Assembly (NCBI RefSeq): GCF_013385985.1
Contig: NZ_JACAOY010000010.1
Span: 62,001-126,000 of the forward strand
DNA length: 64,000 bases
Reading direction: 5' to 3'
Source of the DNA: Pseudomonas sp. B6002
GTDB taxonomy: Bacteria; Pseudomonadota; Gammaproteobacteria; Pseudomonadales; Pseudomonadaceae
The notes below the pieces were generated by a model. That model searched no databases. It had not been told where the DNA came from and saw only the letters and a list, made by a program, of their open reading frames with translations. Shown piece by piece: positions 40,647-50,035 of the stretch. A program made the position numbers and the translations under genes. Every line of letters begins with the position of its first letter. Position 1 is the first letter of the stretch.

Positions 40647-42020
40647 TCATTGCACCGCCTCCAGGTCAAACTGCAGCGGCTCGACCGCCTTGCGCTTGCC
40701 CACGCCATACCAATCGAGCTTGCGCGTCAGCACCATCACCGTGCCCAGCAGGCCGAACAGCAACAGCGAACCCATCAGCAGCGCGTAATCCTCAGCACTC
40801 AGCAACCCGTACAACAAGCCATACAACGCCGCCAACCCCGCCGAAAAGCCCAGCCCGTGGCTGACGCTGCGCAGCACGTGGCACACGTAGAAACCGATCA
40901 ACAACACACAGGCGCTGGCCGAGATGAGGTAAGCCATGGCGAACCCGATGTGCTCGGACAACGACAACAACAGCAAGTAGAAAAACGCCAGCGCAAACCC
41001 CACCAACGCGTACTGCACCGGGTGCACGGCCAGGTTCTTGAGCACTTCGAACAGGAAGAAGCCAGCGAAGGTCAGGGCGATGAACAGCAGCGCATATTTG
41101 ATCGCACGGTCGCTCTTGAGGTACTGGTCCACCGGGTCAATGAAGTTGACGCCAAAGCCACGGTTGCTGAAGTCCTTGCAGCCCTGCCCGTCGAGACAGC
41201 TTTGCAGCGCTTGTTCAAGGTTGGTGGAGAAGAATGAGGTTTGCCAGGTCGCGGTAAAGCCTGTGTCGCTGACCTCACGCTGGGCGGGCAGGAAGTTGCC
41301 GATAAAGCTGGGGTGCGGCCAGTTGGACGCCAGGGTCACCTGGCTGGTCTTGCCTACCGGCACCACTTGCAGTTGTTCGGTGCCTTGCAGGCGCAGGTCG
41401 AAGGCGAACTCCACGACATAGGGCTTCTTGCTGTCTTGCTGCGGCAGCGCCACGTGCACGCCTTCACCCAACCAATCGACTTGGGAACCCGGTTCAAATT
41501 CCAGGCGCTGGTTGCCCAGTTCCAGCTTCAGCGCGTTTTCGATGCCGCGAATATCGCTGATGCCCACCGCCAGAAACGCCGGCTCAAAGCGGTAATCGGC
41601 AAAGTCTTCCGTGATGCCCATTTGCGCAGGCACTTCAAACCGCCCGCCGATGCGGGTGTCGGCATGGAACAGCCGCGCCTGGTAGATGCCCCGTGCGCGC
41701 AGTTCGGTCTGCACTTTGCCGTCGAGTTCAAATCGATCCGGCAGGAAATACAGACGACCGCGCTCTTCACGCGTGACTTCGTAGCGTTTGTTGAGCTTTT
41801 CATTGAGTTTCCACTCGCGCACGGTCTTGCGATAAGGCACCACCATCACCGGGCCGGTGAGGCGCTGGCTGTAGCTGGAGCTGCGGGCGATGTCCATCAA
41901 TACACCGTCACGCAGCTGCTGGCGGTCGCTGATGATGCCGTTGATCATCAGCAACGGAATCAGCAACAGCAGGATCAGCAGCGCAATGGCGCCAAGTTTG
42001 AAAAGCAGACTGCGGTTCAT
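40647..42020 (-). CDS. creD: CreD inner membrane protein
   Basis: CreD (457 residues) is an inner-membrane protein under CreBC control, linked to envelope integrity and beta-lactam response. It has one N-terminal membrane helix (about 8-28), a large periplasmic region (about 30-300) and about five helices at the C-terminus. The frame is open upstream to 42122, but the ATG at 42020 has the hydrophobic N-terminus and follows GGGAGAGACCC. In P. aeruginosa creD follows creC directly; here 5.9 kb separate them. Confidence 0.92.
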   Translation of the reverse strand: MNRSLLFKLGAIALLILLLLIPLLMINGIISDRQQLRDGVLMDIARSSSYSQRLTGPVMVVPYRKTVREWKLNEKLNKRYEVTREERGRLYFLPDRFELDGKVQTELRARGIYQARLFHADTRIGGRFEVPAQMGITEDFADYRFEPAFLAVGISDIRGIENALKLELGNQRLEFEPGSQVDWLGEGVHVALPQQDSKKPYVVEFAFDLRLQGTEQLQVVPVGKTSQVTLASNWPHPSFIGNFLPAQREVSDTGFTATWQTSFFSTNLEQALQSCLDGQGCKDFSNRGFGVNFIDPVDQYLKSDRAIKYALLFIALTFAGFFLFEVLKNLAVHPVQYALVGFALAFFYLLLLSLSEHIGFAMAYLISASACVLLIGFYVCHVLRSVSHGLGFSAGLAALYGLLYGLLSAEDYALLMGSLLLFGLLGTVMVLTRKLDWYGVGKRKAVEPLQFDLEAVQ

Positions 42021-42087
42021 GGGTCTCTCCCTGTTTTGATGGGGGGAGAGTGTGTGAGGGCTGCGTAGCGGTTTTATGGAGGCTGTG

Positions 42088-42111
42088 TGGAGAGTCTGTG
42101 GAGACTCTCCA
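42088..42111. terminator. Perfect hairpin at the end of the inserted operon
   Basis: TGGAGAGTCT-GTGG-AGACTCTCCA is a perfect 10-bp stem with a 4-base loop, 7 bases past the stop of the hydroxyacid dehydrogenase on the minus strand. No T-run follows. It may mark the end of the operon transcript before creD. Confidence 0.55.
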
Positions 42112-42118
42112 GCGTGGG

Positions 42119-43078
42119 TCAATTGACCACGTTACGGTGGCTGCCCTGTTCAAGAATGCTCAACAGTACCTGTGCTGCCTTGGCCCGCAACTCCGGCAAC
42201 GCCGCGTCGGAATAGAACGCGACATGCGGTGACAGCAACACATCATCACGGCCCAGGAATTGTTCGGGGATCGCTTGACGCTCGTCTTCGTAGACATCGA
42301 GCCCAAGCCCGGCCAACAGGCCGTCGGCCACGGCATCACGCAACGCCTGTGAGTCGATAATCGGACCACGTGCGGTGTTGATCAGGTACTTGCCATTGAG
42401 CATCGCCAGTTCCCGTGCGCCGATCAGGTGATGGGTCTGTTCATTCAGCGGCGTGTGAATGCTCACCAAGTCGGCCTTGTGCAGTAACTGCTCCAGCGTT
42501 TCGCAACGCTGCAGCCCCAAGGATTTTTCCACCCCGCTGCAGACAAGGGGGTCGTAAAAGCTGACCTGACAACCAAACGCCTTGAAGCGCAGCGCCGCCG
42601 CCATGCCGATCCGCCCACACCCAATAATGCCCACGTGCAGTTGGCTCATGCGCGGCAACGCGCCGACTTCACGCCAATCCCAACTGCCTCGCGACACCAC
42701 CTCATGGCCGCGGGGCAAGCGGCGTAGCAACGACAGGGCCATGGACAATGCGTGATCAGCCACCTCTTCAGTCCCGTAGTCGGGCACGTTGGCCACTTCG
42801 ATATGGCGCTGACGGGCTGCCACCAAGTCGATATTGTCAAACCCCACGGCCGCACGAACGATGCCCCGGCACCGTTCAAGGCGGTTGATGAACGCGGCTT
42901 GGAGCGGTACCAGGTGCCAACTGATCAGCCCGTCGCATTGCATCGCAGCCTGCGGCAGTTGGTCCGCATTGGAGACCTGGAACAGCGAGACGCTGGCCCG
43001 CCCACCGAATACATCCTGCTCAATGTCAGCCTTGCTCACGTAGCTGTTGTGAAGCGAGTCTATGATTCCGATTTTCAT
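42119..43078 (-). CDS. D-2-hydroxyacid dehydrogenase (CtBP-like)
   Basis: The protein (319 residues) is an NAD(P)-dependent enzyme interconverting 2-keto and D-2-hydroxy acids. The Rossmann motif GIIGCGRIG is at about 149-157; the catalytic Arg is in NTARGPIID, the Glu in DVYEDE and the His in LSPHVAFYS. It is the last gene of the minus-strand operon with azlD, azlC, the aminotransferase and the KamA-like gene, 9 bases after azlD. In this setting it may reduce the keto acid made by the aminotransferase. The substrate is unknown. Confidence 0.88.
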   Translation of the reverse strand: MKIGIIDSLHNSYVSKADIEQDVFGGRASVSLFQVSNADQLPQAAMQCDGLISWHLVPLQAAFINRLERCRGIVRAAVGFDNIDLVAARQRHIEVANVPDYGTEEVADHALSMALSLLRRLPRGHEVVSRGSWDWREVGALPRMSQLHVGIIGCGRIGMAAALRFKAFGCQVSFYDPLVCSGVEKSLGLQRCETLEQLLHKADLVSIHTPLNEQTHHLIGARELAMLNGKYLINTARGPIIDSQALRDAVADGLLAGLGLDVYEDERQAIPEQFLGRDDVLLSPHVAFYSDAALPELRAKAAQVLLSILEQGSHRNVVN

Positions 43079-43087
43079 GGTTTTTCC

Positions 43088-43387
43088 TTAAATGAGCCAA
43101 CGGATCGCCGCGCAGCTAAAGGTGCCTGCGGCGACGCCGAGCAAGGTGTTCTTGAACTTCCAGACCACCGCCACGGTGATCAGCGCCGCCAGCCAGATCG
43201 ACACATCGCCGGTGGCGAGTTTCGGACTGATCAGCGCGGCCAGCAGCGCCGCCGGCAGGTTTTTCAGAAAGCGTTCTGTGAAGCCGTTAAGGCTGGTGCG
43301 CTCGGCCGTCACCAGCAACCCGCCGATGCGGGTGAGGTAGGTGACCAAAGCCATGCCGATGATTGCCGCCAGTTCCAACTCACTCAT
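43088..43387 (-). CDS. AzlD-family amino-acid export subunit
   Basis: The protein (99 residues) has about three to four membrane helices and the AzlD layout (ELELAAIIGMALVTYLTRIGG start). AzlD pairs with AzlC to export branched-chain amino acids in Bacillus. I chose the ATG at 43387, which overlaps the end of azlC by 8 bases; the frame is open upstream but lies in azlC. It is located in an operon with amino-acid-modifying enzymes, suggesting export of the product. Confidence 0.87.
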   Translation of the reverse strand: MSELELAAIIGMALVTYLTRIGGLLVTAERTSLNGFTERFLKNLPAALLAALISPKLATGDVSIWLAALITVAVVWKFKNTLLGVAAGTFSCAAIRWLI

Positions 43388-44090
43388 GGTCGATTCCCAG
43401 TTGTCCGGCCTGGGGCAACGCGGCCACCAACGCACTGGCGATAATCGCCGCAATCACCACCGACGCCTGGCCAATACCCGGCAACTGCGCCGCGTAGAAG
43501 GCGATGACCCCGGACAGCAGCCACGTGAAGAAATCCAGCGAGCGCTGCCACAGCAACACCATCAACGACAGGAACATCGCCACAAAGGTGAAATCCAGGC
43601 CGAAGTCCGCTGGCCGTGGAATATGGCTGCCCAATTGGGTCCCCAGCAGCGTGCCGCCAACCCAGCCGAAATAGATCAGCAGGCCGGCCTGCACGAAATA
43701 ACGCAGGGACGGCGCCGACTTCTTGAAGCGGTGCTCGGCCAGTGCCCAGGTTTCATCGATCAGCAACAAGGAAAACGCGGGAATCAGCTTGCGCTTGGGT
43801 TCCTTGCGAAACGCTGGGCGCAGCGACAGACTCATCAACAAGTGCCGTAGATTGACCAACAGCGTCGTCAGCACGATGGCCACCAACGACAACTGCCCAG
43901 AGTGCCATTGCTCCACCGCCACAAATTGCGAAGCTCCCGCGAAGACCATCAGGCTCATGAGTGTGGCGGCGAGGGGCGACAGCCCGGCCTTGCTGGCCAA
44001 TACGCCAAACACCAGGCCGAAGACAAAGCCGCTGATGACAATGGGCAAGGCGTCTTGAAAGGCGTCACGAAACTGCAGTTGAGGTTTCAT
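43380..44090 (-). CDS. AzlC-family amino-acid exporter
   Basis: The protein (236 residues) is an AzlC permease with about five to six membrane helices; the family segment VFGVLASKAGLSPLAATLMS and the FAGASQFVAV motif are visible. With AzlD it exports amino acids or analogs. The start overlaps the aminotransferase stop (ATGA). Its placement between a transaminase and a hydroxyacid dehydrogenase is unlike the usual azlCD context beside an Lrp regulator. Confidence 0.9.
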   Translation of the reverse strand: MKPQLQFRDAFQDALPIVISGFVFGLVFGVLASKAGLSPLAATLMSLMVFAGASQFVAVEQWHSGQLSLVAIVLTTLLVNLRHLLMSLSLRPAFRKEPKRKLIPAFSLLLIDETWALAEHRFKKSAPSLRYFVQAGLLIYFGWVGGTLLGTQLGSHIPRPADFGLDFTFVAMFLSLMVLLWQRSLDFFTWLLSGVIAFYAAQLPGIGQASVVIAAIIASALVAALPQAGQLGIDHE

Positions 44091-45196
44091 TCAATGGCCC
44101 TCTCGAACAGTTCCAGCACGCGCTCCTCCAGGGCGGCTTCACAGACGGTGACCCGGATCAGGTTGGCAAACGCTGGATGCAGTGGCCGGTGCACGGCAAT
44201 CCGGTGATCCAGCAGATGCTCCTGCAAGTGGTGAGCCGCCGCCGCAGTCGGCAACAACAGGCTGATGAAGTTGGTACCAGACGGCAGCACCCGGTAGCCC
44301 ATCCCCCGCAACCGCTGGCTGAAGGCATCGCGCAGCAGGGCGTTGTTTTCCTGGATGGCTTCGGCGTGGTGCCGATCGTCCAGCGCCACGCGCGCGGCGT
44401 GCTGCACCAGGCCACCGACGGCGTAGTGAATGCGCACCTTGTCGAGCATGGCGATGGTCGCAGGATCGGCCAGCGCATACCCCAGGCGCAAACCGGCAAG
44501 GGCGTAGGCCTTGGACAGAGAACGCACCCGGATGCAGCCCTCAAGCACCCGCTCACTGTTCATCTGCAAGTCAGGGCAAAAGTCCAGGTAGGCTTCGTCC
44601 AGCAGTAAGGTGCAATCATCGGGCAAGGAAGACGCCAACTCCTGAACCGCTTCAAACGACCACCAACTGCCCGTCGGATTATCCGGGTTAGCCAGGTAGA
44701 CCACCTTGGCGCCGCAACGCACGGCTTCAAGCAACAACCCAGGAATGTTCACTGCCAGGCTGGTGTCCGTGCGGTGATACGGGGTTTCGACCACCTCACA
44801 CCCCGCCGCTTTGGCGAAATACGCAAAGGTTGGATAGGTGCCAGCACTGCATATCACCCGGTCCCCCGGCGCGCACAAGGCTCGAATGCACAACGCCAGG
44901 ACCGCATCGGCGCCGCTGTCCAGGCACAGATGCGCCGGGTTGAAACCGTGAGCCGCCGCCAGTGCCTGGCGTAGGGCAAAGGCTTGCGGATCGCCATACA
45001 GCCGTGCGTGTTCGCAAAAGTCATTGCCGTAGCGCTCGCGCAACGCGGTGAGTGGCGCGTCGAGGCATTCATTGCCGCCCAGGCGCAAGTCGACCTGCCT
45101 GCCCGTGCGCTGTTCAAAGGCGACCATGCCAGGAAACGGGTTGGGGTTGTCCAGGCCCGTCAGATGGCTGGCAAAACGATTGACCATAAGGTTCAT
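44087..45196 (-). CDS. HisC-like class I/II PLP aminotransferase
   Basis: The protein (369 residues) is a class I/II aminotransferase close to histidinol-phosphate aminotransferase. The PLP lysine is Lys229 in RSLSKAYALAGLRLGYAL; Asp200 and Tyr203 in LLLDEAYLDF, and NPDNPTGS (170-177) are conserved. It lies between the KamA-like gene (ATGA overlap at 45193-45196) and azlC (ATGA overlap), so all three are coupled. It is not part of a his operon here. The substrate could be the product of the KamA-like enzyme or its precursor. Confidence 0.88.
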   Translation of the reverse strand: MNLMVNRFASHLTGLDNPNPFPGMVAFEQRTGRQVDLRLGGNECLDAPLTALRERYGNDFCEHARLYGDPQAFALRQALAAAHGFNPAHLCLDSGADAVLALCIRALCAPGDRVICSAGTYPTFAYFAKAAGCEVVETPYHRTDTSLAVNIPGLLLEAVRCGAKVVYLANPDNPTGSWWSFEAVQELASSLPDDCTLLLDEAYLDFCPDLQMNSERVLEGCIRVRSLSKAYALAGLRLGYALADPATIAMLDKVRIHYAVGGLVQHAARVALDDRHHAEAIQENNALLRDAFSQRLRGMGYRVLPSGTNFISLLLPTAAAAHHLQEHLLDHRIAVHRPLHPAFANLIRVTVCEAALEERVLELFERAIE

Positions 45197-46383
45197 TCCG
45201 GAAAAGTGCAGGGCTGGCCTTGCCAGTTGGTGTACTGCAGGTATTCACCGTCGCTGCGTCGCTGCAGGGTCGGCAGACCGTTCAGCAGATCCAGGGGCAC
45301 GGTGTATTTGCCGGTTTTGTGAGGCAGTACGTATTCAGGCACGGCGATATTCGACAGCCTGCGCTTCATGCGGCTGACCAAGGCCACGGCGTCGCTGATG
45401 TCGGTACGGAAGGCCTGGGAACCGGGTGAGAACGGCATGAAGTGATACAAGTAGTGCGGCTGGATGCCGTGCCGGTAGAGGGTCAGGCACAACTCGGCCA
45501 TCGTGTCGTAGTCGTCGTTGATGCCACTGAGCAATGGGATGTTGGCGAACAGGATCGGGCACACGCTGCGCAGGCGCTTGGCTGCTTGCAGGAAGTCTTC
45601 CGTGACTTCCCGGGGGTGGACGATATGCAAGCCTATGGCAGTGACGTCGTGCCGCCCGAGGACCTCCACGAGTTGATCAGTAATACGGTAGGGGTTGAAG
45701 GTCAGCGCACGGGTGTGCAGGCGGATGATCAGGTTGGGGCGAATCGCTCGCAGGTCGCCAAGGTAGCCATCCAGGTGTTTGTCGGAATGCATCAACGGCT
45801 CGCCGCCACTGAGGATCACTTCATCGAGCTGCGGGTTCTGACGGATGTAGTCGAGCGTATCGAGCCAGTCCTGCTTGCGCATTGAGCTTTTAACGGTCTG
45901 TTTTTCCAGGGTGCGCAAGGCTTCGTAACAGAACTGGCAATACGCGTGGCAGACGTTGGCCAGGCGCAGGATGACCCGATTGTCGTATTTGTGCTGACAG
46001 ATCGGCGTCACCATTTCGTCGGGCAATTCCCAGTTTTCCGACTCGCCGTCGTAGCCCAGGGCCTCGGCGGCAGGGGTGCTGTTCCAATCGGGAATCAATT
46101 GACGCCAAAAGGGGTCATCTGTCAGGGGGCGCCGATGCTGATCAACCTTGATCAGGCCCAGGGTGTAAGGAGTTACCGTAAGTTTGCGGTCTTCCAGGTG
46201 CTGGCCAATGCGCTGCAGCCAACCATCCTGTGCCAACCCCGGAAAGTAGCCCAGCAGCTCATCAAGCTTGGTCACTGCATTGCGCTGTTGCCATTTCCAG
46301 TCGCTCCAGTTGTCGAGGTCGGTCACGGCCAAGGGCTGACTGTTGCGGGGTGCCAATACCGACGGTGACAAAACGTGCGTCAT
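45193..46383 (-). CDS. KamA-family radical SAM/PLP aminomutase-like enzyme
   Basis: The protein (396 residues) aligns with lysine 2,3-aminomutase: Cys145, Cys149, Cys152 form CHAYCQFC, the SGGEPL motif is at 192-197, and Lys359 in LPHKTGKYTV is the PLP lysine. The residues that hold lysine in the Clostridium enzyme (Arg134, Asp293, Asp330 from memory) align with Glu154, the YHFMPF segment (about 313-318) and Val352, so lysine is unlikely to be the substrate. The C-terminal zinc-binding cysteines are absent. AGGAGG is 7 bases before the ATG at 46383. This is the first gene of the operon, divergent from the MocR regulator. Confidence 0.85.
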   Translation of the reverse strand: MTHVLSPSVLAPRNSQPLAVTDLDNWSDWKWQQRNAVTKLDELLGYFPGLAQDGWLQRIGQHLEDRKLTVTPYTLGLIKVDQHRRPLTDDPFWRQLIPDWNSTPAAEALGYDGESENWELPDEMVTPICQHKYDNRVILRLANVCHAYCQFCYEALRTLEKQTVKSSMRKQDWLDTLDYIRQNPQLDEVILSGGEPLMHSDKHLDGYLGDLRAIRPNLIIRLHTRALTFNPYRITDQLVEVLGRHDVTAIGLHIVHPREVTEDFLQAAKRLRSVCPILFANIPLLSGINDDYDTMAELCLTLYRHGIQPHYLYHFMPFSPGSQAFRTDISDAVALVSRMKRRLSNIAVPEYVLPHKTGKYTVPLDLLNGLPTLQRRSDGEYLQYTNWQGQPCTFPE

Positions 46384-46474
46384 CACTATTCCTCCTGAAT
46401 TAAGCTGACAGTCCGTCAGGCTTACTCCAGAAATCCCGGCAACCCAAAAACAGTGCTGGTCCTGCTGTGATAAC

Positions 46475-46496
46475 TGTTAGAAGATTTGCCCTAACA
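46475..46496. promoter_or_regulatory. Candidate MocR operator
   Basis: TGTTAG-(10 nt)-CTAACA is a perfect inverted repeat in the 135-base gap between the divergent KamA-like and MocR genes. A second loose pair, ACAGT...ACTGT, overlaps it. This is the natural place for a MocR-type autoregulatory site. Confidence 0.45.
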
Positions 46497-46518
46497 CTTC
46501 ATGGTCAGGGTCACAGGG

Positions 46519-47922
46519 ATGGAACTCATACTAGACCGCTCACCAAAGACTGCCGTCATCGAACAGCTGGTGAGTGCCATCAAGGAGGCTATCGGGCGTG
46601 GCGAGATCAAGCCCGGGCAGCGTTTGCCGTCCATTCGCGAGCTCAGCGCCAGGCACGACCTGAGCTTCCATACCGTCGTCAGCGCTTACGAGCGCCTGGA
46701 AATCAATGGGTGGATCAGCGCCAGCCAAGGCCGTGGTTTTTTCGTCGAGGCCCAGGCGAGCAAACCACCGGCGCCTGCCCAGATGGCGCCCCTGGAAGCC
46801 ATTGACCGAGGAAACTTGAACGCCTTCTGGCGGATCTTCCATGGCGATGCCTACAGCATGAAACTGGGCTGCGGCTGGCTGCCGCCGGCTTGGCGCGACA
46901 CCCAGGCCCTGGCGAGGATCATCCGCCGTACGGCCAACTTCGCCCACAGCTCGCTGATCGAATACGGCGATCCACTCGGTCATTTGCCGCTGCGCCAGAA
47001 CCTTGCCCAACACCTGCACAACAGGCTGGCCTTAACGGTCAACCCCGATCAGGTGCTGACCACCCTCGGCGCCACCCAGGCGCTGGACCTGGTGATTCGC
47101 AAACTTATCGAGCCCGGCGATTGCGTACTGGTGGACGACCCCTGCAACAGTAACCTGGTGCAACTGCTGGCCCTGCGCGGTGCCACGGTGGTCGGCGTCG
47201 CGCGGCTGCCTGACGGCCCGGATATCGAAGCACTGGAAAAAACCCTGGCCAGCCGAACCGTAAAAGCCTTCTTCATCAACTCGCAATTTCACAACCCCAC
47301 CGGCTCATCGTTGAGCCCGCACAGGGCTTTCCAGATTTTACAGCTGGCTTATCAGTACGATCTGCTGCTGGTGGAAGATGACGTTTACGGCGACCTGACC
47401 GGCGAACACGGCACGCGGCTGGCGACCCTCGACGGCTTGCGCAAAGTGATCTACATCAGCAGCTTTTCCAAGACACTCTCGGCCAGCCTAAGGGTGGGCT
47501 ATTTGGTGGCACCGCCCCACCTGATTGCAGCGTTGGCCGACTTGAAACTGCTGACCAGCGTCGCCGTGCCGAGCTTCTGCGAGCGTTTTCTCAGCACGAT
47601 CCTGTCGGACGGTATTTACGAACGGCACTTGAACCTGGTTCAACGCAAATTGCAGACCCACCAGGCGATCGCTCAAGCGAGTTTCCAACGCTGGGGCTGG
47701 GAGATCTTCCACCTGCCCGATGGCGGGTTGTTTCTCTGGATACGCCACCCCGAACTGACTCAAACCGATGACTTCCTTGAACGCGCCTACAAGCAGGGCA
47801 TCCTGCTGGCGCCCGGCCAGTTGTTCGACGCCAATGGTCTCAAGAGCCCCTGGTTGCGCATCAACGTCGCACACCTGGACCCGGCCAAAGCCCAGCGGCT
47901 GTTCCAGAAGCCTTTCGGTTGA
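46519..47922 (+). CDS. MocR-type regulator (GntR helix-turn-helix fused to aminotransferase)
   Basis: The protein (467 residues) has a GntR winged helix-turn-helix (about 10-76, with PGQRLPSIRELSARHDLS) and a class I aminotransferase-like domain with PLP lysine Lys318 in SFSKTLSAS and NPTG at 259-262. MocR proteins use PLP-bound amino compounds as effectors and often control neighbouring genes. I prefer the ATG at 46519, with AGGG 8 bases upstream, over 46501. It is divergent from the KamA-like operon and is the probable local regulator. It converges with creC. Confidence 0.92.
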   Translation: MELILDRSPKTAVIEQLVSAIKEAIGRGEIKPGQRLPSIRELSARHDLSFHTVVSAYERLEINGWISASQGRGFFVEAQASKPPAPAQMAPLEAIDRGNLNAFWRIFHGDAYSMKLGCGWLPPAWRDTQALARIIRRTANFAHSSLIEYGDPLGHLPLRQNLAQHLHNRLALTVNPDQVLTTLGATQALDLVIRKLIEPGDCVLVDDPCNSNLVQLLALRGATVVGVARLPDGPDIEALEKTLASRTVKAFFINSQFHNPTGSSLSPHRAFQILQLAYQYDLLLVEDDVYGDLTGEHGTRLATLDGLRKVIYISSFSKTLSASLRVGYLVAPPHLIAALADLKLLTSVAVPSFCERFLSTILSDGIYERHLNLVQRKLQTHQAIAQASFQRWGWEIFHLPDGGLFLWIRHPELTQTDDFLERAYKQGILLAPGQLFDANGLKSPWLRINVAHLDPAKAQRLFQKPFG

Positions 47923-47939
47923 GTCATGCAGGCCTCTGC

Positions 47940-49367
47940 TCAGTCGACGTCGGGCAGCCACAGCACCACAAGCACGCCGCCGGCAACGTTGCCGATCTGT
48001 AGCCCGCCGTTATGCAACTGCATCACTTCTTGCACGAAGTTCAATCCCAGCCCGGTGCTCTTGCGCCCGCTCACAGGCCGTGGCAACGAGTAAAAACGCT
48101 CGCTCAAGCGCGGTAGGGCATAGTCGGGAATCGGCTCAGCCTGGTTGAACAGGCTCACCTCAATCTTGTTATCCCGGCGCTGCGCCGAGAAGCGCAGCGT
48201 GCCGCCAGGGGGCGTGAAATCCAGCGCATTTTCCAGCAGGTTGCCGAGGGCCTGTTGCAGCAGAAAGGGCTCGCCAAACAGCTGCACATCCGCGGCGATC
48301 CCTTGCTCCACGTGCAAGTCGAAGCGCTGGATACGCGCACATTGAGCGTTGAGTACGTTGTCCACCATGGTTGCCAGCGGCACCGCCACTTGCTCTTCCA
48401 GGCCTTGGCGCTGCTCGACCTGCGCCAGGTTCAGCAGGCGCTCGATCAACTGCTGCAGGCGCGCACTTTCGCTGTCGATATTGCCGACAAAACGCTGCTG
48501 CTGCTCGCGGCTCATATCGCCCTGCAACAGCTCCGCCGCGCCACGAATCGCCGCCAGCGGGCTTTTCAGTTCGTGGGTCAGGGTGTGCACGTAATGTTCG
48601 ACGTAGGCCTTGCCCTCCAGCTGCGTGCGCATGTGCTCCACGGCCGTGGACAGCTGCTTCAACTCGCCGCCCCGGTAGTGAGGCAACTCAGCGCGCCGGC
48701 CTTCGCTGACAGCCTCTGCGTACGCCGTGAGCCGGCGCAGGGCCACGCTCAGCCACCATGACAGCAACGCACCGAGCAACAGACCGAGAATCACCAACCC
48801 GGCGCCGTACCACAGCAGGCGGCGTTCGGTACGGTCCACATAAGGCTGCAATGAACTGTTGGGCTTGGCCACGGTGACCACGCCGATGATCTGGCCGTTG
48901 TCACGGATCGGCGCGCCCACGTGCATCACCGACGACGCCGGGTCGTCCAGTTCGCTGCGGGTGGAACGGGCGCCGTACTCGCCGCGCAGAGTCAGGTACA
49001 CGTCGTTCCACTTGGAGTAGTCCTGGCCCACCGCCTCGCCCGTGGAATCGAGCAACACCGTGCCTTTTGCGTCGGTGACGTAGATACGGTGATTAACCTG
49101 GTTTTTCGGCAGGCCCCAGATTGTCGCGCCCGGCTGGCGGTTGCCGTAGGCCTTGAGCAGTTCGGGCCAGTGGCTTTGGCCGAGGGTGCCGTTTTTTACG
49201 TCATCGCGCAGGATCTCGGCCAGCAGGTTGGCGGTGTCCACCAGGGTTTCTTCGGTGGACTGGCGCACGCCCGGGCGGATTTCCTTCATCACCGTGCTGA
49301 GCACAAAGTAGCCGGTGAGACCGATAAACAGCGCGTACACCAGGAAGATCCGCAGCCCCAGGCGCAT
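47940..49367 (-). CDS. creC: Sensor histidine kinase CreC
   Basis: CreC (475 residues) is a membrane histidine kinase: an N-terminal helix (about 7-27), a periplasmic sensing domain (about 30-185), a second helix (about 187-208), a HAMP region, a dimerisation segment with phospho-acceptor His in TLTHELKSPLA, and an ATPase domain with NLLENALDF and STGLGLNFV. It pairs with CreB. The gene overlaps the creB stop by one base (TGATG). The inserted operon lies between it and creD. Confidence 0.95.
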   Translation of the reverse strand: MRLGLRIFLVYALFIGLTGYFVLSTVMKEIRPGVRQSTEETLVDTANLLAEILRDDVKNGTLGQSHWPELLKAYGNRQPGATIWGLPKNQVNHRIYVTDAKGTVLLDSTGEAVGQDYSKWNDVYLTLRGEYGARSTRSELDDPASSVMHVGAPIRDNGQIIGVVTVAKPNSSLQPYVDRTERRLLWYGAGLVILGLLLGALLSWWLSVALRRLTAYAEAVSEGRRAELPHYRGGELKQLSTAVEHMRTQLEGKAYVEHYVHTLTHELKSPLAAIRGAAELLQGDMSREQQQRFVGNIDSESARLQQLIERLLNLAQVEQRQGLEEQVAVPLATMVDNVLNAQCARIQRFDLHVEQGIAADVQLFGEPFLLQQALGNLLENALDFTPPGGTLRFSAQRRDNKIEVSLFNQAEPIPDYALPRLSERFYSLPRPVSGRKSTGLGLNFVQEVMQLHNGGLQIGNVAGGVLVVLWLPDVD

Positions 49368-50035
49368 CAGCTATTGCTCGGGCTGTAGCTGTAACCGAGG
49401 CCGCGGTGGGTCTGGATCGGCTCGGCATCGGCGGCCACGATCCGCAGTTTGCTGCGCAGGCTTTTGATATGGCTGTCGATATTGCGCTCATAGCCGGCAT
49501 CCGCCGCCACGCCCACCGCATCCAGCAACTGCTCGCGGCTGAACACCCGCTCGGGTTGCTCCAGCAGGCTTTGCAGCAGGCGGAACTCATGGCGTGTGAG
49601 GCCCAGCGGCTGGCCGCGATAAGCGATCTGCATGCGATCCAGATCAACCTGGAACACCGTGGGCGCAGTGCCCGGGCCGATGCGCTTGAGGATCGCCCTG
49701 ACCCGCGCCGTCACCTCCCGAGGGCTGAACGGCTTGACCACATAATCGTCGGCGCCGATCTCCAGCCCCACCACGCGGTCGATCTCGCCATCCCGCGCAC
49801 TGAGGAACATCACCGGCACTTCACTGAAACGGCGCAGTTGCTTGCAGGTTTCAAACCCCGTGATGTCGGGCAGGCCGATGTCGAGGATGACCAAATCGGC
49901 CGGTGTCTGACGCTGATGGGCCAGCGCTTCCTGGCCGAGGCTCAGCCAGGTGGTGGTGAAGCCCTCGCCTTGCAGGGCAAAAATCAGCGTGTCGGCGATG
50001 GCCGCTTCGTCTTCGACAATCAGGATATGCGGCAT
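49367..50035 (-). CDS. creB: Response regulator CreB
   Basis: CreB (222 residues) is an OmpR-family regulator with a receiver domain (acidic residues EDE at 8-10, phospho-acceptor Asp52 in LDIGLPD, Lys in VVKPFS) and a winged-helix DNA-binding domain (about 125-220). It activates creD and the cre regulon on CreC signalling and, in Pseudomonas, affects beta-lactam response. It lies 9 bases after the zinc-protease-like gene on the minus strand, so the two may be one transcript. Confidence 0.95.
   Translation of the reverse strand: MPHILIVEDEAAIADTLIFALQGEGFTTTWLSLGQEALAHQRQTPADLVILDIGLPDITGFETCKQLRRFSEVPVMFLSARDGEIDRVVGLEIGADDYVVKPFSPREVTARVRAILKRIGPGTAPTVFQVDLDRMQIAYRGQPLGLTRHEFRLLQSLLEQPERVFSREQLLDAVGVAADAGYERNIDSHIKSLRSKLRIVAADAEPIQTHRGLGYSYSPSNS

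Follow-up and report, generated by a model that had tools for sequence, protein, structure and literature searches.

A six-gene cassette between creC and creD of a Pseudomonas genome: a putative biosynthesis-and-export unit for an unusual amino acid, with a KamA-like enzyme of a separate clade

The described systems closest to the locus considered here, a cassette of six genes at positions 42119..47922 of a 64-kb stretch of DNA from Pseudomonas sp. B6002 (contig NZ_JACAOY010000010.1; the whole stretch is hereafter the window), are lysine 2,3-aminomutase (LAM; AblA/KamA, PDB 2a5h), the KamA-superfamily protein EpmB of elongation factor P (EF-P) beta-lysylation, the AzlCD pair of Bacillus subtilis, the MocR regulons, and the pboF-pboG-pboH-pboI genes contained in the Pbo cluster of P. 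syringae pv. phaseolicola (PMC8473136, in the portion available). The Bacillus pair represents the same two Pfam families, likewise encoded by adjacent genes, but it is controlled by AzlB, whereas the pair in the window belongs to an operon of enzyme genes beside a gene for a MocR-type regulator (PMC11005379, as excerpted). MocR operators commonly consist of inverted and direct boxes, and the cassette has a predicted operator of that kind, an inverted repeat with an extra box; the terms 'aminomutase', 'azl' and 'kamA' are, in turn, absent from the main text of the MocR study, supplement excluded (PMC5320631). The first-pass annotation of the window knew of no described system with this gene set. 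The six-gene set and the KamA clade as such indeed had no description in the open-access literature searched (supplements excluded); that claim does not extend to the kind of system, which has a described relative because the related pboF-pboI set is in print within the Pbo cluster (PMC8473136, in the portion available). The parts of the cassette and their chemistry are of known kinds, and what is new is the combination of genes, the changed active site of the KamA-like enzyme, and a trio of genes that recurs across phyla. On balance, the cassette would probably be a compact, self-contained unit for the biosynthesis and export of an unusual amino acid.

Five genes of the cassette are on the minus strand and one, divergent, is on the plus strand; these open reading frames, the predicted regulatory sites and the flanking genes are as follows (SAM, S-adenosylmethionine; PLP, pyridoxal 5'-phosphate):

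42119..43078, minus strand: D-2-hydroxyacid dehydrogenase (PF02826 and PF00389; PDB matches; motif positions)
43088..43402, minus strand: AzlD, small subunit of amino acid exporter (PF05437, E 2e-19)
43380..44090, minus strand: AzlC, large subunit of amino acid exporter (PF03591, E 7e-42)
44087..45196, minus strand: HisC-like fold-type I aminotransferase (PF00155, E 9e-47; lysine in SLSKAYALAG, 226)
45193..46386, minus strand: KamA-like radical SAM enzyme, PLP-lysine position K360, separate clade (CHAYCQFCYEALRTL)
46449..46454, minus strand: extra half-site ACTGTT (alignment of AzlCD-type intergenic regions)
46475..46496, no strand: predicted palindromic operator TGTTAG-N10-CTAACA, between the KamA and MocR genes
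46519..47922, plus strand: MocR-type regulator, GntR and aminotransferase domains (PF00392, PF00155; lysine in SSFSKTLSAS, 314)
42105..47960, no strand: stretch missing from the empty junctions of relatives L046, L047, L049 and L050 (blastn)
40647..42029, minus strand: creD, flank outside the cassette (NF008712 CreD, 577.8 bits, cut-off 275)
47940..49367, minus strand: creC, flank (NF008312, 670.4 bits, cut-off 356)
49367..50035, minus strand: creB, flank (NF008296, 346.2 bits, cut-off 273)

Open reading frames, Pfam and NCBIfam agree with the six genes as first described: the KamA and aminotransferase genes overlap by 4 nt, as do those for aminotransferase and AzlC, the AzlC and AzlD genes overlap by 23 nt, and a 9-nt gap separates the AzlD and dehydrogenase genes. 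The KamA-like gene is likelier to start with the ATG at 46383 than with the GTG at 46386. For the MocR gene an ATG at 46501 is likewise open, and the start codon region is conserved in 7/8 rows of an alignment of AzlCD-type intergenic regions. The family names of all six genes are backed by Pfam and NCBIfam; none of the enzymes of the block reaches the cut-off of the NCBIfam families compared, so that their names denote fold and chemistry, not substrate.

The linkage of three of these genes reaches well beyond Pseudomonas. A profile of 18 KamA proteins matched 23/399 Pseudomonas genomes at a threshold of E 1e-60 or better; seven matches were of a type with dehydrogenase and aminotransferase genes (three at creC/creD, four elsewhere), and the remaining 16, with weaker scores, were of a PboF type (see below). 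A class-wide scan matched 1/369 genomes, the source of the window, and a pattern-seeded scan, which detects close relatives only, covered 84,980 species with one genome apiece and gave 21 loci, 20 of them within one subclade, from Pseudomonas, Stutzerimonas, Burkholderia latens, Competibacteraceae, another gammaproteobacterium, seven Streptomyces and one actinomycete metagenome-assembled genome (MAG). Plasmid matches comprised 35 records, all below 60% identity; among the 15 listed, one exceeded 33%, on a 3.2-Mb Burkholderia replicon that carries a PboFGHI-like set. After second copies from the same genomes were dropped, the subclade numbered 22 loci (the window, L024-L043 and L098), and KamA, dehydrogenase and aminotransferase occur together in every one of them; the three core proteins agree in their pairwise distances (Mantel r 0.925-0.964). 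The periphery varies: AzlCD is found in 9/22 loci, a protein of about 409 residues with a major facilitator superfamily (MFS) protein in 5/22, and a haem-oxygenase-fold enzyme with MetK in 8/22. For the protein of about 409 residues, encoded after the aminotransferase in L029-L033, three of four members gave no Pfam hit and one an ATP-grasp hit below threshold. Its profile matches that of the PboG-type ligase weakly (hhalign probability 39%, E 3e-4), and its model (mean predicted local distance difference test score, pLDDT, 72.8) has biotin carboxylases as top Foldseek matches, the dipeptide ligases RizA and BacD following in places 20 and 21. A divergent ATP-grasp fold is thus predicted by modelling, and the protein may be a ligase.

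The KamA-like enzyme of the window is homologous to the named members of its family yet stands apart from each of them. It scores 175.8 bits against TIGR00238 (KamA family radical SAM), under the curated cut-off of 199.2, and lies further below those of LAM (TIGR03820, 190 against 525.4), EpmB (TIGR03821, 160.3 against 369.3), glutamate 2,3-aminomutase (TIGR04368, 181.9 against 650) and arginine 2,3-aminomutase (TIGR04468, 171.9 against 600); six of seven EpmB control fragments scored 412-490 against TIGR03821, and the seventh, shorter fragment (L007) 350.6. In a tree of 36 rows, in which the outgroup branches are long, the clade is separate from EpmB and LAM at a support of 100/99, with the window protein and EpmB on opposite sides; within it, the actinomycete group is supported at 100/100, the Pbo group at 98/98 and the 22-row dehydrogenase/aminotransferase group at only 91/85. 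The AzlCD-bearing loci do not form one clade, as L028 groups with the ATP-grasp/MFS set.

Like LAM, the enzyme has the CxxxCxxC cysteines of the iron-sulphur (FeS) motif (C146, C150, C153) and the PLP lysine (K360), invariant in 18/18 rows, and its predicted fold is that of 2a5h over 326 residues; unlike LAM, it has different neighbour genes and replaced acidic residues. In LAM, D293 and D330 bind the side-chain amine of lysine and R134 binds the substrate carboxylate. In an alignment of 29 clade rows with LAM and five EpmB controls (a distant relative, L003, with K in the place of R134, was left out of the counts), R116 and the three cysteines are retained in 29/29 clade rows, and in the same 29 rows R134 is replaced by E, D293 and D330 by P, and Q258 by N. 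The EpmB controls, by contrast, retain R134, D293 and Q258 in 5/5, with D330 changed to E in 4/5. Since P takes the place of D293 and D330 throughout the clade, the lysine side-chain end of the active site is changed. The carboxylate end is uncertain: the loop after the FeS motif is two residues longer in the clade and carries an invariant arginine, R158, which might replace R134 of LAM, and the model is unreliable there (pLDDT below 50 at 144-157, just at the loop near R158). Identity with LAM or EpmB was rejected on scores and active-site positions, and identity with the glutamate or arginine aminomutases on scores.

The Arg, Glu and His found in the dehydrogenase motifs TARG (235), DVYED (261) and SPHVAF (283) are the usual catalytic residues of D-2-hydroxyacid dehydrogenases. 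The best PDB match is CtBP1 (E 7e-52), a likeness and not a membership, because the CTBP subfamily is described as animal only; the best substrate reported for CtBP1 is 4-methylthio-2-oxobutyrate (PMC6303947, as excerpted). The aminotransferase scores 203.4 bits against TIGR01141 (HisC; cut-off 276.55) and 259.5 against NF006014 (PRK08153; cut-off 510). AzlC and AzlD, from adjacent and overlapping genes, are far above the Pfam gathering scores (143.6 against 32.1, and 70 against 23.7), and AzlC is below the cut-off of the equivalog TIGR00346 (102.7 against 332.35 bits). By analogy with B. subtilis, the pair may be a pump (PMC11005379, as excerpted).

A regulated unit had been proposed, and a conserved, private palindromic operator, predicted from sequence only, speaks for it. 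The regulator has the features of its class, a GntR domain and an aminotransferase domain with its lysine (SSFSK, 314). TGTTAG followed 9-11 nt on by CTAACA occurs once in the window and in 0/100 shuffles, and a longer form of the palindrome, with three mismatches allowed, gave no additional place in the window. The exact palindrome is present in 11/13 MocR-bearing loci; L026 has a shorter variant, L029 a merely degenerate one, and the contig of L028 is without MocR. At the extra half-site, TGTT is found in 8/8 and ACTGTT in 6/8 aligned AzlCD-type intergenic regions. Because the palindrome occupies a single place per genome in all four carriers searched (G000, G030, G328 and G792), the MocR regulon would be limited to the one cassette locus; the palindrome was not found in G017, a genome without the block.

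The block is accessory, not core, and the ancient core block that the first-pass annotation had allowed for does not hold: empty junctions predominate, and 7/399 Pseudomonas genomes carry the dehydrogenase/aminotransferase type. A creD search of 58 genomes, including that of the window, matched 33, and 30 loci were fetched. In 21/30, no more than 200 nt separate the end of creC from the creD match, the two genes being normally adjacent in Pseudomonas (P. aeruginosa was not examined by name); the block separates them in 2/30 (the window's own genome and G030), and in 4/30 no creC lies within the fetched stretch. The same arrangement was thus found elsewhere in Pseudomonas, in G030 and in a third genome, G328 (locus L098), which came from the genus scan. 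The closest relative by CreD, G017 (95%), is empty, and G030 (88%) carries the block. By blastn of the junctions, 5.9 kb of the window are unshared with four empty relatives (L046, L047, L049 and L050), in line with the 5.8-kb block first described as splitting creC from creD. In 1-kb windows the block has a G+C content of 0.57-0.62, similar to that of its surroundings, so that composition gives no foreign mark. Measured in complete steps of 100 nt against its counterpart in L046, the nearest relative, creC is 84-97% identical before position 1000 and 73-83% identical from there on, which weakly suggests that the block was imported by recombination; the creC genes of L046 and L047 dip too after position 1000 (80-89%). 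In the four empty relatives, CreC ends LHLHTVST.., reaching into the spacer before creD, an end absent from the window and L024 (in deeper relatives CreC is mostly shorter, ending ..LP or similar), and loss there is therefore as possible as import here. Transfer by a mobile element was considered and rejected: the block directly abuts creC and creD, the window is without a tRNA gene and the G+C content is silent, no search having been aimed at transposases. At three other junctions among the 30 (L058, L065 and L068), 0.7-1.2 kb of other sequence lies between creC and creD, for which reason the creC/creD junction may accept cargo repeatedly.

A sister subclade provides the link to Pbo. In all 15 PboF-type Pseudomonas loci available in full, KamA is followed by a ligase, a 2-oxoglutarate (2OG) oxygenase and an MFS protein; for the sixteenth genome, G227, a short locus (L087) covers the ligase and the beginning of the oxygenase. 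These loci match pboFGHI in order and families (KamA, L-amino acid ligase, isoleucine-hydroxylase-like 2OG oxygenase, MFS), a match that rests on gene order and family names, not on comparison with the PSPPH_4554 protein (PMC8473136, in the portion available). Their KamA proteins are 48-52% identical to that of the window and have the same replaced positions, and in one locus (L103, 3804-14947) the PboF-type KamA gene is separated from a non-ribosomal peptide synthetase (NRPS) gene by genes for AzlC, AzlD and a serine hydrolase, a second link of AzlCD to this KamA group. They differ from the cassette in having the ligase and oxygenase and in lacking dehydrogenase and aminotransferase; with the window MocR as probe, no MocR was found in them. 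The window block, for its part, is without PboFGHI-type ligase, 2OG oxygenase or MFS genes. In P. syringae, pboFGHI are part of an NRPS/polyketide synthase island, no toxin is made when the pboA operon carries a polar mutation, and the Pbo product is unknown (PMC8473136, in the portion available). A PboFGHI-like four-gene set is also present in Burkholderia cenocepacia (L131, 7001-11464; NZ_CP091013.1), on a 3.2-Mb replicon, and is absent from the gene table of the collection.

In the proposed pathway, the dehydrogenase and aminotransferase would interconvert a D-2-hydroxy acid, its 2-oxo acid and an alpha-amino acid whose side chain bears no positive charge, and so supply the alpha-amino acid for KamA; the KamA-clade enzyme would use LAM-like radical chemistry to transfer the alpha-amino group to the beta carbon, AzlCD would pump the resulting beta-amino acid out, and MocR, with its PLP-type domain as the sensor of an amino acid, would control the operon from its one private operator. 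Several points weigh against this biosynthetic proposal. More than one route could be drawn through the three enzymes, and as an alpha-to-beta shift leaves no group on the alpha carbon for a 2-hydroxyacid dehydrogenase, the dehydrogenase would have to act before KamA, or the order differs. The dehydrogenase and aminotransferase were not found in 15/15 sister loci (about 7 kb per side, tblastn 1e-5), and the KamA reaction therefore does not need them. A methyltransferase gene adjoins 5/9 AzlCD-type loci and had no match in the genome of the window (no positive control genome was run), so that the copy in the window might lack a step; for the same reason we do not treat the methyltransferase as essential. 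A promoter scan of the cassette region found no sigma-70-type site, and MocR, aminotransferase and dehydrogenase together also fit catabolism. A route from serine via isoserine to diaminopropionate, by KamA, dehydrogenase and aminotransferase, was dropped by reasoning, since the hydroxyl stays on the beta carbon in a 2,3-amino shift.

An alternative, which we consider unlikely, is a catabolic or detoxification unit in which MocR senses an outside, unusual (perhaps beta-) amino acid, KamA converts it to an alpha-amino acid, aminotransferase and dehydrogenase carry this on to the 2-oxo acid and then the D-2-hydroxy acid, with AzlCD serving as a relief valve. Aminotransferase followed by 2-hydroxyacid dehydrogenase is a usual order in amino acid breakdown, which counts for such a flow, as does the nature of the MocR regulons headed in PMC5320631 (main text), namely PLP metabolism and the utilization of ectoine, gamma-aminobutyrate and taurine. 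However, the block is without an importer or further catabolic gene, related clusters hold exporters, ATP-grasp proteins and oxygenases, and the operator occurs at one place in the genome only. It is somewhat less probable again that the KamA-clade enzyme is no aminomutase but catalyses an elimination, a cleavage or a rearrangement with the same radical/PLP chemistry, in which case the product would not be a beta-amino acid; the E, P, P and N at R134, D293, D330 and Q258, positions of which EpmB keeps R134, D293 and Q258, and the longer loop with R158 count for such an enzyme, but the retained R116, cysteines and PLP-lysine position and the predicted LAM fold favour an aminomutase. A role in ordinary solute or primary metabolism, for instance in making beta-glutamate, which acts as a compatible solute, is very improbable: the named KamA relatives do include lysine, glutamate and arginine 2,3-aminomutases, but the score for the glutamate enzyme is far below its cut-off (181.9 against 650) and the distribution in Pseudomonas is patchy (7/399).

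Beyond biosynthesis and export by the cassette itself, we tentatively entertain a wider possibility, that an unrecognised subclass of radical SAM/PLP aminomutases for non-basic amino acids is the core of a family of accessory antimetabolite clusters, mostly built on the KamA-dehydrogenase-aminotransferase trio, the product being a free amino acid exported by AzlCD here, peptide-linked forms made by ATP-grasp ligases in other Pseudomonas, and in Streptomyces a form accompanied by a divergent MetK of its own, which may be a protected target. If so, an aminomutase clade with changed substrate-binding positions spans Pseudomonas to Streptomyces, new amino acid natural products could be mined for with the three-enzyme core, the private operator would make the cassette simple to switch and test, and the pboF-type link would be a route into the unknown Pbo product. 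The actinomycete clusters (L034-L037, L039-L041 and L043, from seven Streptomyces and the MAG) combine the core trio with MetK and a haem-oxygenase-fold enzyme whose best PDB match is HrmI. The MetK of one cluster passes the NCBI cut-off (401.7 against 309.4), and in two Streptomyces genomes the cluster MetK shares 46-47% identity with the other copies, the L041 protein being the reference throughout, a divergence that a resistant target, or else a special substrate, could explain. An MtnA-MtnB fusion is encoded near two of the eight clusters. Together with MetK and the CtBP-like dehydrogenase it hints at a methionine-type substrate, which is only a lead because the dehydrogenase match is distant and the fusion lies near 2/8 clusters only. 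Subsets of the actinomycete clusters also contain alanine racemase, glutamate-cysteine-ligase-like or VioD-like genes.

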